A DNA stretch of 64,000 bases from Fulvia fulva (Eukaryota; Ascomycota; Dothideomycetes; Mycosphaerellales; Mycosphaerellaceae). The notes below the pieces were generated by a model that saw only the letters and a program-made list of their open reading frames with translations, searched no databases and was not told the origin of the DNA. Both the position numbers and the translations under genes were made by a program. Shown in pieces: positions 16,203-29,572 of this stretch. The stretch covers positions 5,952,001 through 6,016,000 of the forward strand of contig NC_063014.1 in the NCBI RefSeq assembly GCF_020509005.1, in the 5' to 3' direction. How positions within the stretch are numbered: position 1 is the stretch's first letter; each line of letters opens with the position of its first letter.

Positions 16203-17198
16203 CTAGGCAGATTTCGAGAAGAAATCCTCGCATTCCTGGTACGTCTTTGTCGCTGTCGCCCGATCCATCGCATTGAACTCGCGGCTGACAACATTCTTCT
16301 TTGGACAGTCTCTAGCATAGTGGCCTTTCTTTCCACATGCATAGCAAGTTAGATCTCTTGTTAACTGCTTGCTTCGTCCGCGCCTTTCCGTGGCGTCGAG
16401 TTCCATTGGATCTCCATAATCAGGGTCGTGACTTCTGGCCTTGAAGCCCCCTCTTCCGCCTCTCGCGGGTCTCTGGAATCCAGGCTGTACGAATCGGTCG
16501 TACTTCAATTCCTGGAGTCTCTCGTCGATTTCCTTTGCAGCCTTGACCATCGCGGCCAAGCTGGTGAGACTGGAGTTTCGAGATAATTCGGCTTTGACGT
16601 TGTCCTTCAAGCCTAGGTAGAACTGGGAACGAAACGCTGCGTCGTTCCACTCGAGGTCGGCGGCATATCCTTGGAACTCAGAGGCGTATACGGCGACTGA
16701 GGTGTTTTGTCGGAGTTGTCGGATATGTCGGTCGGCATGAACCTCCTCGTTAGGTATCCCGTAGAGATCATTCAGCTTGATCTCGAACTCATCGTAGTCG
16801 GCAAATATCTTCCGGGTTTCTGTCTTCGGGTTGTCTCCTTCGTCCTGGTTGTTGAGCCAGTCTTTGAGGTATGGTCTGAATCCCCGGGCTGCCCTGCCCC
16901 TTAGGAAGGATGCGGCGTACAAGACCTTAGAGGCCTCGCCATTAAACTGTTGGGCGTTGAAGTAGAGGTACAGCTGAACCTGCAGCTGAAAAGCCTCCAG
17001 CTTCCCTTGTGTCCCATCGAACGTCTCCGGTGGTGACACCTTAGGTGCCTTGGTGAACTCGTGCATGCTGTTCGAGCTTGCAGAGGGTGTTGATCGTTTT
17101 CCGCTTCCAGTAATCGACATTTCGCTCATTCGTTCCGTGATGCCAGTTGACTGTGGCTGTTGTCGTGACGGACTCCGGGTAGCGTCTCTCCCAGACAT
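16203..17198 (-). CDS. gag: Gag polyprotein of element C
   Basis: 331 residues from the ATG at 17198; an upstream in-frame TTG at 17204 is less likely. Residues about 55-240 are a retrotransposon gag domain (PETFDGTQGKLEAF...QLYLYF, RGRAARGFRPYL, FRSQFYLGLKD). A Gly/Arg-rich stretch follows and then a perfect CX2CX4HX4C zinc knuckle, CYACGKKGHYARDC. The frame ends shortly after the knuckle with no protease or reverse transcriptase, so the element has gag only. It would form the nucleocapsid shell that packages element RNA. No RIP stops are present, so the gene looks functional. It is the only intact transposon protein gene in the window. Confidence 0.92.
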   Translation of the reverse strand: MSGRDATRSPSRQQPQSTGITERMSEMSITGSGKRSTPSASSNSMHEFTKAPKVSPPETFDGTQGKLEAFQLQVQLYLYFNAQQFNGEASKVLYAASFLRGRAARGFRPYLKDWLNNQDEGDNPKTETRKIFADYDEFEIKLNDLYGIPNEEVHADRHIRQLRQNTSVAVYASEFQGYAADLEWNDAAFRSQFYLGLKDNVKAELSRNSSLTSLAAMVKAAKEIDERLQELKYDRFVQPGFQRPARGGRGGFKARSHDPDYGDPMELDATERRGRSKQLTRDLTCYACGKKGHYARDCPKKNVVSREFNAMDRATATKTYQECEDFFSKSA

Positions 17199-17230
17199 AT
17201 ACAAAGGGCCCTGGTGGTGGTGCTCAAAGT

Positions 17231-24213: not shown

Positions 24214-26073
24214 ATGGCCGCCCTACCTCAGTACTCGTACATCTTCGGATTGGGCATCTGCTTCGCCTTCCTCGATGCGTGGAGCATCGGAGCTAATGAT
24301 GTCGCCAACTCGTTCGCGACCTCGGTCAGTTCGAGGTCGCTGACTATGACCAAAGCGATGACCAGCGGTGGTATCATGGAATTCGTAGGAGCAGTGCTTG
24401 CTGGGTGAGACATAGAAGCTCGAGCGTGTTCAGGACCAAAGCTAATAAAACACAGATCTCGTGTCGTAGGAACCATCCGTAACGATATCATCTCCATCGA
24501 GGCTTTTGAACAGGACCCAAGCGTGCTTATGATGGGTATGCTGTGTGCCTTGATCGGTTCCTCGCTCTTCTTGACTCTGGCCACCAAGATCGGTCTCCCT
24601 GTATCCACCACTCACTGTATCATCGGTGGTATCATCGGCGTCGGCTTTGCAACTGTCGGCGCGAACGGTGTTGACTGGTCATGGGGAGGTGTCTCTCAAG
24701 TCTTCGCTGCCTGGGGTATCGCACCTTGCATTGCCGGCTGCTTCGGTGCCATGATCTTCACCTTTACAATGTCCGGCGTCTTCAAGTCGAAGAATCCACT
24801 CAGGATGGGCATAATTACGGTCCCAATATACTTTGCCCTCACCAGCGGTATCTGCACCATGCTCATTGTCTGGAAAGGCGCTGCGTCTCTTGATCTCGAT
24901 GACTGGGGAGTCGCACCCACCGTCGGCACGATCTTTGGTGTCGCCGATGGATGTGCTCTTCTGTCCGTCATCTTCCTTCTGCCATTCGTCTACGTTCGAC
25001 TAGTCAAGGAAGACTGGCAGGTCAAGCAGTGGGACATCCTCAAAGGCCCGCTTCTCCTCCGCCGTCGAGCACCACCGCCAATGCCAGCTGGCCACCGCCT
25101 CGTGTCAGACTACTATGCCGGCCACAAGACACGTGAAGAACTCGAGCGTGATGGCGCCGACCGTGAATCTACCGGCGATGAAGAGAGTATCGGCAAGGAC
25201 GGCGTGGCTCCAGCTGCTGCTCTCGCCTTGGAAGAGACCAGCGCGAGCGCTGTTGCACAACCCAGCGTCACATCCGACCAGATGGCCAAGGCCGAGAGGC
25301 AACTCAACATTCGCAAGTGGTACGAGCCACAAATGCTCTGGAAGAAGTTTGTATGGCTGTTTTTCTTCCGTGGTGTCATGGTTGACGTTGTCGTCGAGCA
25401 GTCGCACTCCAACGAGGCTAAGGGTCTGCAACGACTCCTTGCCGGAACCAGCCTGGCTGACAAGCACGCACGTGTTGAACACTATAACCCCAAGGTTGAG
25501 CATCTTTACTCTTTCCTCCAAGTCCTCACTGCCGCTACCGCGTCTTTCGCGCATGGTGCCAACGACGTTGCTATTGCCATGGGTCCGTTATCTGCTATCT
25601 ACCACATCTGGAACACTGGCACCACAGGCGAAGACTCTGCGGTCCCGATCTGGGTTCTCGTCTTTGGAGGTGCTTCTATCTCCATCGGTCTCTGGACTTA
25701 CGGATACAACCTGATGCGCAACTTGGGTAACCGCATCACTCTCCACTCGCATTGCAGAGGTTTCCCCATGGAGCTTGGTGCCGCGCTCACCGTTGTCCTC
25801 GCCACCCGTCTCGCTCTTCCGGTCTCGACTACGCAATGTATCATTGGTGCCACTGTTGGTGTTGGTCTTTGCGCTGGAGATGTCAAGGCTATCAACTGGC
25901 GCATGGTCATTTGGGCTTATGCTGGTTGGTTCATTACGTTGCCTTGCACTGCTGTTTTTGCTGGATGTTTGATGGGGTCCAAGATTAATTCGCCGCAGTT
26001 TGGGAACTCTGTTCAGAGATTGGGGATAAGTTATGTCATAGCGATAGCCTGTCATTGGCATGTAGACACTTGA
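24214..26073 (+). CDS. Pho4-family inorganic phosphate symporter (PHO-4/Pho89 type)
   Basis: Plasma-membrane cation-coupled phosphate transporter. Two exons: 24214-24404 and 24456-26073, with an intron of 51 nt (GTGAGA...GCTAAT...CACAG). The protein is about 602 residues, close to the family norm. The two inverted Pho4 halves are clear. The first has GANDVANSF and GLPVSTTHCIIGG; the second has FAHGANDVAIAMGPL and ALPVSTTQCIIGA. A hydrophilic loop of about 120 residues, with acidic and Ser/Glu stretches (about residues 200-310), separates them. Start ATG is preceded by CAACG. The very C-terminus after INSPQFG is less conserved and an unseen last intron is possible. Such transporters are usually induced by phosphate starvation; no operator was identified here. 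Converges with the receptor gene, 138 bp apart. Confidence 0.93.
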
Positions 26074-28589: not shown

Positions 28590-29338
28590 GTTGCGATGCT
28601 CAATCAACGTTGGGTAGGTAACAGTTGGGCTGTATGTCGATTGCACTACATGTAAGCGATATATGTACTCACGGTCTTCGAGTCGCATGTCGGTGCTCAG
28701 CGGGGGTCGTCTTGAACGCAACCGAGGCTGATCACGACACAGTCATCTTGGGCTCACAAGGTCCTGGTCAAAACACAGTGCGAACGGGTCCTCGAATACT
28801 GTCCTCTGCAATGCATGGTCCACCAGGAGGAAGGAGGTCACTGCCCTCTTGGTCGTGCAAGCCCAAAGCTTCCCGATCGGCGGAGCTGCGACCCGTGCAT
28901 CTCCGTCTCGGCCTCATACAACACTTTCGCAAGCGACGGCTACATGGCATTGCTCACGCAGACTGTTTGGTGATATATGCAAGTCGACACCCCAGAGCAT
29001 TGTGCTCAGGATCTATGTCTTGTGAAAGCTCTGCCTGCCTCGGGATCCTTCTTTGGGACGAAATCTTGGCACTCACTTCACGTCTCGTTTCCTTCTGACA
29101 ATACCACAACCTGGCCAAACACATCGCATATTCCCCCGGGTTTGCGAGTCGGAGCTTAGTGCTCCAATTCGCTCCATTATGCCGTCCATTTTGCGGCTTT
29201 GCTCTTTCGAGATCTTTCCCCAAGAGAGCAGACCCACAATTCAGATCTCGCCGGAGCACAAACCCTGCTGACGCACAGCGTGAATTAAGAGCTATATATA
29301 CGATCCTAAATTTCCCTGCACCAATCACATCACAGCAA
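28590..29338. other. Intergenic, upstream of hydratase and of tRNA-Asn
   Basis: No convincing protein gene; open frames at 28625-29098 and 28954-29328 lack features. A TATATATA lies near the tRNA end. Confidence 0.45.
29293..29300 (+). promoter_or_regulatory. TATA-like element upstream of tRNA-Asn
   Basis: TATATATA ends 38 bp before the first tRNA base. Upstream TATA boxes position TFIIIB at some fungal tRNA genes and at U6 genes. It may matter here because both internal promoter boxes are split by introns. Confidence 0.45.
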
Positions 29339-29348
29339 TCCCCCGTGG

Positions 29349-29404
29349 GTAAGTCGCAATTAACAATCAGCGCTTCTCACGAGCACTCGCTAACATTCAC
29401 TCAG
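29349..29404 (+). other. Spliceosomal-type intron 1 in tRNA-Asn D-arm (56 nt)
   Basis: Begins GTAAGT, has branch-like GCTAAC (29389-29394), ends CTCAG 10 nt later. It falls after tRNA base 10, inside the A-box. Confidence 0.85.
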
Positions 29405-29432
29405 CGCAATTGGCTAGCGCGTTCGACTGTTA

Positions 29433-29454
29433 ATGGCCTCGGCTGTCAACTGGA
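29433..29454 (+). other. Canonical tRNA intron in anticodon loop (22 nt)
   Basis: Lies between bases 37 and 38, the standard site for tRNA endonuclease, and contains CAAC, which can pair with the anticodon GTT, as in ordinary eukaryotic pre-tRNAs. Confidence 0.88.
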
Positions 29455-29474
29455 ATCGGGAGGTTGGTGGTTCG

Positions 29475-29528
29475 GTAAGATTTCCTCATCATATCAATCA
29501 GTCTATCACATACTAACAACGTCCGTAG
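29475..29528 (+). other. Spliceosomal-type intron 3 in tRNA-Asn T-loop (54 nt)
   Basis: Begins GTAAGA, has branch-like ACTAAC (29512-29517), ends CGTAG 11 nt later. It splits TTCG from AGC, cutting the B-box. Confidence 0.85.
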
Positions 29529-29567
29529 AGCCCACCCGGGGGAGAAGTCCTTAGCCAGTCTCCATTC

Positions 29568-29572
29568 TTTTT
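29568..29572 (+). terminator. T5 run, candidate RNA polymerase III terminator
   Basis: CTTTTTG located 23 bp after the last tRNA base, a usual distance and form for a polymerase III stop. Confidence 0.6.

Follow-up and report, generated by a model that had tools for sequence, protein, structure and literature searches.

Splicing of nuclear tRNAs is taught as the job of a tRNA endonuclease and a ligase. Spliceosomal splicing is normally coupled to RNA polymerase II, and TATA boxes suit polymerases II and III alike. A polymerase III RNA with an mRNA-type intron is known from fission yeast: in its U6 snRNA genes, and in those of other fungi, a GT-AG intron is spliced from a structured RNA that has no reading frame (PMC10484740, accessible portion). 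U6 is one gene for one spliceosomal RNA, whereas the case described here, in Fulvia fulva, involves tRNAs of 12 amino acids that carry up to three such introns plus the canonical one. U6 itself was found in the F. fulva genome as a single, intact gene without an intron, and no intron-bearing U6 turned up. Fungal rRNA and U2 genes likewise contain spliceosomal introns in non-coding RNA, but not in tRNA (PMC2586383, accessible portion). Archaeal multi-intron and algal permuted tRNA genes are also broken at odd sites and hidden from ordinary finders; they rely on bulge-helix-bulge motifs, whereas the F. fulva tRNA junctions have no such excess. A literature search whose coverage excluded preprints and most subscription papers turned up no paper describing spliceosomal introns in nuclear tRNA genes, and the accessible text of a 2014 review of tRNA introns (PMC4090602) contains no word starting with "spliceosom". 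As far as we have seen, spliceosomal introns in non-coding polymerase III genes are known, but a tRNA host and the present scale are unprecedented.

The window, that is, the whole stretch of DNA analyzed here, comprises 64,000 nucleotides of F. fulva (C3:5952001-6016000) in a searched genome of 67,169,167 bp and 14 contigs. The preliminary description of the window had placed a tRNA-Asn gene with two GT-AG introns and one canonical-site intron at 29339-29544, and we found this to be correct, with coordinates exact to the base. The parts of the gene, its flanking signals, and a protein-coding intron used as a yardstick are as follows:

24405..24455, plus strand: protein-coding yardstick intron of a phosphate permease, 51 nt, GTGAGA...GCTAATAAAACACAG (tblastn of P0001, in-frame join)
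29293..29300, plus strand: TATA motif TATATATA, at -46 to -39 (sequence)
29339..29348, plus strand: exon 1, nt 1-10, with the acceptor 5' strand, U8, G9 and G10 (cloverleaf)
29349..29404, plus strand: outer intron 1, 56 nt, GTAAGT...GCTAACATTCACTCAG, between nt 10/11 (cloverleaf, splice signals)
29405..29432, plus strand: exon 2, nt 11-37, with the D arm, anticodon 5' strand and GUU anticodon (cloverleaf)
29433..29454, plus strand: canonical tRNA intron, 22 nt, between nt 37/38 (ARAGORN i(38,22))
29455..29474, plus strand: exon 3, nt 38-57, with the anticodon 3' strand, variable loop, T stem 5' strand and TTCG (cloverleaf)
29475..29528, plus strand: outer intron 3, 54 nt, GTAAGA...ACTAACAACGTCCGTAG, in the T loop after nt 57 (cloverleaf, splice signals)
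29529..29544, plus strand: exon 4, nt 58-73, with the T stem 3' strand, acceptor 3' strand and discriminator G (cloverleaf)
29568..29572, plus strand: TTTTT (CTTTTTGC), putative polymerase III terminator, 24 nt past the tRNA-Asn gene (sequence)

Once 29349-29404, 29433-29454, and 29475-29528 are cut out, the remaining 74 nt (TCCCCCGTGGCGCAATTGGCTAGCGCGTTCGACTGTTAATCGGGAGGTTGGTGGTTCGAGCCCACCCGGGGGAG) form a complete cloverleaf of tRNA-Asn(GUU) with all stems paired. As had been described, pairing is complete in the acceptor (7/7), D (4/4), and T (5/5) stems, the anticodon is GTT, and the discriminator is G; the anticodon stem is paired as well (5/5), and the conserved bases T8, T33, T-loop TTCGA, and G73 are present. 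ARAGORN identified the fully joined sequence as tRNA-Asn(gtt); with its intron option, and given the sequence with the outer introns alone removed, it reported tRNA-Asn(gtt) with a 22-nt intron. The unspliced genomic sequence gave no match with ARAGORN and none with Rfam. A chance match was ruled out, as 0 of 930 dinucleotide shuffles gave an intron-bearing cloverleaf. The same procedure applied to 848 tiles of both window strands returned one intron-bearing tRNA gene, which was 29339-29544 itself. A mitochondrial origin was also ruled out, because the window sits in a 6.2-Mb contig.

The 22-nt intron occupies the site of canonical nuclear tRNA introns, which the endonuclease removes after base 37, and by its position 29433-29454 is classed as the tRNA-endonuclease type. 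Its border slides by one A, and it forms a hairpin in constrained folds. The outer introns differ from canonical tRNA introns in lying at 10/11 and 57/58 and in having GT-AG ends, branch sites, and lengths of 54-56 nt. The signals of outer intron 1 are GTAAGT...GCTAAC...TCAG and those of outer intron 3 are GTAAGA...ACTAAC...GTAG. The yardstick intron at 24405-24455 reads GTGAGA...GCTAAT...ACAG, and a 516-aa open frame at 24523-26073 is a 99% match to the F. fulva phosphate permease. The earlier statement that the outer introns resemble the protein-gene introns of the window therefore held as to kind, with one intron (24405-24455) compared, whereas the branch-to-acceptor distance of 10-11 nt had to be corrected: we counted 11 and 12 nt after the branch A. 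In donor, branch site, acceptor, and length, the outer introns match spliceosomal GT-AG introns of the species. Intron-like units of 50-59 nt are in weak excess in the window (15 seen and 6.4 expected). We hold with strong confidence that 29339-29544 would be transcribed as a polymerase III precursor from which the spliceosome clears the outer introns and the tRNA endonuclease the inner one.

Two further features of the window were noted. CGCAATT occurs twice, at 29355-29361 (7 nt into intron 1) and at 29405-29411 (the start of exon 2), and CGCAGTGG lies near the equivalent place in the intron of a second tRNA-Asn gene. The repeat may reflect a tandem duplication when the intron arose, or it may be an A-box-like element. 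On the minus strand, 16203-17204 is an open frame with retrotransposon gag and zinc-knuckle domains.

The second tRNA-Asn gene (L028, C3:1336220ff) contained the sole other match to the mature tRNA in a genome BLAST, at C3:1336287ff, and an exact copy of exon 2 lies at C3:1336298-1336316. L028 has a 55-nt outer intron between nt 10/11 (GTGAGT...GCTAAC...CCAG) and a canonical-site intron of 19-20 nt; its T loop has no intron. A 19-nt D/anticodon pattern with up to three mismatches found, genome-wide, both tRNA-Asn genes and one three-mismatch place, which gave no cloverleaf; the reversed control of the pattern had 15 places. Neither the genome BLAST nor the 19-nt pattern search found a tRNA-Asn gene free of outer introns. 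The 10/11 introns of the two genes align at 38 of 57 columns with a score of 48, and shuffles keeping the splice signals scored 35 on average and 49 at most. Common descent of these two introns is likely from this alignment, though not certain. The mature sequences differ at six bases, which make up three compensatory pairs (7-66, 50-64, and 52-62). Because all six differences are compensatory, we reject the idea that the two are pseudogenes. The argument that the restored stems speak against a neutral pseudogene is thus strengthened by a second gene that keeps its pairs through compensatory changes.

The architecture is not confined to tRNA-Asn. Across the genome, the Rfam tRNA model returned 22 places at E<=0.001 and 28 at E<=10, with 63 of 1,234 first-look candidates scored, and several of the weak Rfam places were tRNA genes carrying extra GT-AG introns. 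We scored cloverleaves with a hand-made finder that first takes out as many as three GT...branch...AG segments. It required GT, AG, a YTNAY branch lying 5-25 nt before the end, a length of 44-75 nt, and a score of at least 6. These motif rules were set after the first examples had been seen, and motif statistics from the finder are partly built in. The finder was run on 89 regions: 75 B-box loci, 8 weak Rfam places, 3 Lys, 1 Gly, and 2 Asn. The B-box pattern GGTTCGANYCC has 89 places; the 75 loci account for 76 of them, and the other 13 are known tRNA loci or a six-copy repeat. A cloverleaf was obtained in 37 of the 89 regions, and in 31 of these the finder placed at least one GT-AG intron. 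One more gene, L140, was reached through a D-arm pattern and raises the number of tRNA genes with GT-AG introns to 32.

These 32 genes represent 17 anticodons and 12 amino acids and hold 56 GT-AG introns. By anticodon, they number Asn GTT 2, Lys CTT 4, Gly GCC 4, Asp GTC 4, Thr AGT 3, Thr CGT 1, Gln CTG 2, Gln TTG 1, Tyr GTA 2, Leu AAG 2, Leu CAA 1, Ser AGA 1, Ser CGA 1, Val CAC 1, Val TAC 1, Glu CTC 1, and Pro CGG 1. Thirteen genes have one GT-AG intron, 14 have two, and five have three, and a canonical-site intron is also present in 29 of the 32. The 56 introns are 48-62 nt long (median 55). G stands at +5 in 54 of them, the acceptor is CAG in 35, TAG in 15, and AAG in 6, and 50 have a CTRAY branch site whose A lies 10-13 nt before the intron end. 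Neither the tight branch spacing nor the tight length range follows from the rules built into the finder. A Thr(TGT) gene, L081, has two GT-AG introns according to ARAGORN and was dropped by the scorer of the finder. Fourteen single-locus tRNA genes are free of GT-AG introns (Ala, Arg, Cys, Gly, Leu, Pro, Ser, Thr, Val, and others). The counts of 32 and 14 are lower bounds with differing search biases. The genome searches used identified no initiator Met, Phe, His, or Trp gene with confidence, so the tRNA catalogue is incomplete. A BLAST of the genome with approximate sequences of 17 foreign tRNAs gave 0 candidates, and no weight is placed on this result.

The D-arm searches led mostly elsewhere. 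Pattern 1, a D-arm-like 14-mer, had 203 places compared with 15 for its control, and among 100 listed places at least 91 copies were TAGTATAGCGGTAA. Six pattern-1 places were examined and yielded one tRNA gene, L140; no tRNA was found at L136 and L137, two copies of the D-arm-like repeat. The 14-mer seems to belong to dispersed repeats. Pattern 2 had 13 places, not above its control (20). Four exact places were the known Lys genes and nine were inexact; six of the nine were examined, five of these (all but L149) were not tRNA-like, and none passed the scorer. L149 (C11:1848833-1849163) is tRNA-like: its D and T arms are intact, a long insert (about 86 nt) lies close to the anticodon loop, and its obvious fold has no T33.

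We determined intron borders without motif rules by comparison with an intron-free sister gene. Five Gly(GCC) genes share an identical 71-nt mature sequence, and one of them has no GT-AG intron. Compared with this sister, the border was unique in 4 of the 4 others and was GT...AG every time. Sister-gene comparison also gave unique GT-AG borders for intron 1 of Thr(AGT) L075 and intron 1 of Asp L035. For Asn intron 3 and Asp L133 intron 1, a one-base slide allows two frames, one of which is GT-AG. The finder had taken 49 nt for the L035 intron; the sister gene gives 52 nt and overrules it. L050 has two equal border solutions. In the Lys genes, the border is ambiguous between a U29-U41 mismatch and another exon split; the anticodon-stem mismatch appears in all four Lys(CTT) genes (L080, L083, L084, and L085) if the canonical intron is placed alike.

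Intron-bearing loci could be dead or dying, with intact tRNA genes, missed or absent from the assembly, supplying the cell. The reach of the searches leaves some room for this, as just 63 of 1,234 candidates were scored in the first-look search and BLAST missed known short-exon genes (Asp, Gln, and Tyr loci), and the 14 single-locus genes without a GT-AG intron show that such genes exist. Two loci are imperfect. Gln L047, a tRNA by ARAGORN alone, has GT-AG introns and a poorly paired acceptor, and the Glu-like L082 has GT-AG introns and no cloverleaf. With their poorly paired acceptors or odd variable regions, these two are possible decaying intron-bearing tRNA genes.

The rest of the set does not look like decay. 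The T stem is paired 5/5 in 32 of 32 genes, and the acceptor 7/7 in 29, with 6/7 in the remaining three (Asp). Apart from the compensated Asn differences, a stem that reads GTGGG/CCCAC in three of the Lys(CTT) genes is GAGGG/CCCTC in L085, also a compensatory change. Exons are conserved while introns drift: the mature tRNAs of five Gly, two Thr, and two Gln genes are identical within each group, and their introns are 62-85% alike. Thr(AGT) L075 and L077 make the same mature tRNA with two introns and one, respectively, and Gln(CTG) L048 and L109 share theirs with introns 85% and 73% alike. In addition, uninterrupted copies are the best-detected class, yet the genome searches found none for Asn, for Lys(CTT), for Thr(AGT), or for the queried Asp, Gln, and Tyr sequences. 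A GT-AG intron was present in every gene found for Lys(CTT) (4/4), Thr(AGT) (3/3), Asp (4/4), and Tyr (2/2), and in 3/3 scored Gln genes. ARAGORN labelled an uninterrupted locus, L020, as Tyr; the scorer rejects it, with GTA read as inside an intron. We consider it highly improbable that the intron-bearing loci are dead copies.

Transcription signals were compared with window backgrounds. A run of T5 lies within 80 nt downstream of 24 of the 26 intron-bearing genes with enough flank, against a background of 2.4%, and inside 0 of 32 gene bodies (mean length 187 nt), against 6.2% expected per gene. TTTT occurs inside 3 of the 56 GT-AG introns. Of 29 intron-bearing genes, 20 have an upstream TATA motif no more than 70 nt away, against 20.6% in the background. 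The tRNA genes without GT-AG introns have the same surroundings; in the 12 scored, T5 was found in 9, T4 or longer in 12, and TATA in 9. Because T5 terminators lie downstream and none inside the genes, we infer that polymerase III with TATA-bound TFIIIB transcribes the intron-bearing tRNA genes. Junctions fall in the A-box region in 13 of 56 cases and in the B box in 5 of 56. In the window gene, outer intron 1 splits the A box and outer intron 3 splits the B box, leaving neither internal box intact in the DNA, with the TATA motif upstream. The donor after TGG gives TGGGTAAG, which we take to keep part of the A-box consensus.

These signals also bear on whether polymerase II makes spliced non-coding RNAs from which the tRNAs are then cut out. 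The usual coupling of spliceosomal splicing to polymerase II, the fit of a TATA box to either polymerase, and the interrupted internal promoter boxes would all agree with such a route. However, it does not account for T5 runs that lie near downstream and never inside gene bodies, nor for the same context around tRNA genes free of GT-AG introns. Transcription by polymerase II is very unlikely on this evidence, and polymerase III remains our reading.

The outer introns might instead be non-canonical introns cut by the tRNA endonuclease at bulge-helix-bulge motifs. Multi-intron tRNA genes with odd intron sites are known in archaea and some red algae (PMC4090602, accessible text), and 29 of the 32 F. 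fulva genes also have a canonical-site intron. For any one offset, we found bulge-helix-bulge helices at no more than 5 of 56 junctions (shuffled means 0-3.2), and this maximum was reached at two offsets, where 2.5-2.7 were expected. Without a clear excess over shuffled pairings, outer introns of the endonuclease type were rejected. Lengths of 48-62 nt, GT-AG ends, and branch sites are, moreover, not needed by the tRNA endonuclease. The probability that we would assign to endonuclease cleavage of the outer introns is next to negligible.

Spliceosomal introns in tRNA genes could also have arrived by recent invasion of introner-like elements, which are known from protein genes of F. fulva and its relatives, and so share organism and intron class with the tRNA introns. 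Some copies of these elements in F. fulva are 99% identical (PMC4457414, accessible portion). Introner-like elements repeat, whereas the tested tRNA introns have no repeated copies: a genome BLAST with the three outer introns of the two Asn genes gave no match elsewhere. Over 1,540 pairs of introns, the highest similarities (up to 85%) were between introns at one site in duplicate genes. Of the 15 pairs that were most alike, 11 were same-site pairs from duplicate or sister genes, which is the pattern expected of inherited introns. The introner invasion raised in the preliminary description is therefore not borne out, and we regard a recent invasion as extremely unlikely; an old introner origin is conceivable. 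Ordinary GT-AG introns would have entered the tRNA genes and been inherited by gene duplication, rather than as fresh introner copies.

For the window gene, a sequence of maturation steps can be proposed. RNA polymerase III would make the tRNA-Asn precursor, helped by the upstream TATA box, as the A box and, in the window copy, the B box are interrupted. The spliceosome would take out both outer introns first. The tRNA fold would then form for the endonuclease, RNase P, and RNase Z, and the endonuclease would remove the 22-nt canonical intron. This order seems the most natural, given that both the tRNA endonuclease and the end-processing enzymes require a folded tRNA. The predicted product is a functional tRNA-Asn, needed for decoding AAC/AAU. 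Since every tRNA-Asn gene that our searches found has at least one outer intron, decoding of AAC/AAU would need the spliceosome. Within search reach, Lys(CTT), Thr(AGT), Asp, Gln, and Tyr would have the same dependence. Maturation by both machineries, as the preliminary description had suggested, fits all of the sequence tests, and the architecture recurs in at least 31 other tRNA genes.

Taken together, we conclude with good confidence that a large part of nuclear tRNA maturation has moved into the spliceosome in this fungus. Polymerase III genes for the tRNAs of 12 or more amino acids, including every tRNA-Asn gene found, probably carry one to three GT-AG introns on top of the canonical intron, so that all translation would depend on pre-mRNA splicing and standard tRNA finders would miss much of the gene set. 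If this is true, translation is tied directly to splicing and essential tRNAs need the spliceosome too. The spliceosome would routinely handle uncapped polymerase III transcripts with exons down to a few nucleotides, and it would have to be asked how transcription works when the internal promoters of tRNA genes are split. The F. fulva tRNA genes would offer a clean system for intron gain without a reading frame. Low tRNA counts in some fungal genomes would also be explained. In Peltaster fructicola, which belongs to the same class (Dothideomycetes) as F. fulva, a tRNAscan-SE count of 44 was taken as tRNA gene reduction (PMC7181583, accessible portion).

Some minor observations were made during the genome searches. 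The B-box 11-mer pattern is rarer (89 places) than its backward reading (153), perhaps through CpG content. A viral-contig scan gave 5 places. A 115-nt tRNA-like sequence occurs in six copies of equal length and score, on C1, C2, C4, C5, C9, and C12; it has an intron-like insert of 41-43 nt, and the copies compared, L013 and L014, are identical. ARAGORN assigns it to Trp or Gly depending on the cut. The six-copy sequence is possibly a mobile or repeat-borne tRNA.
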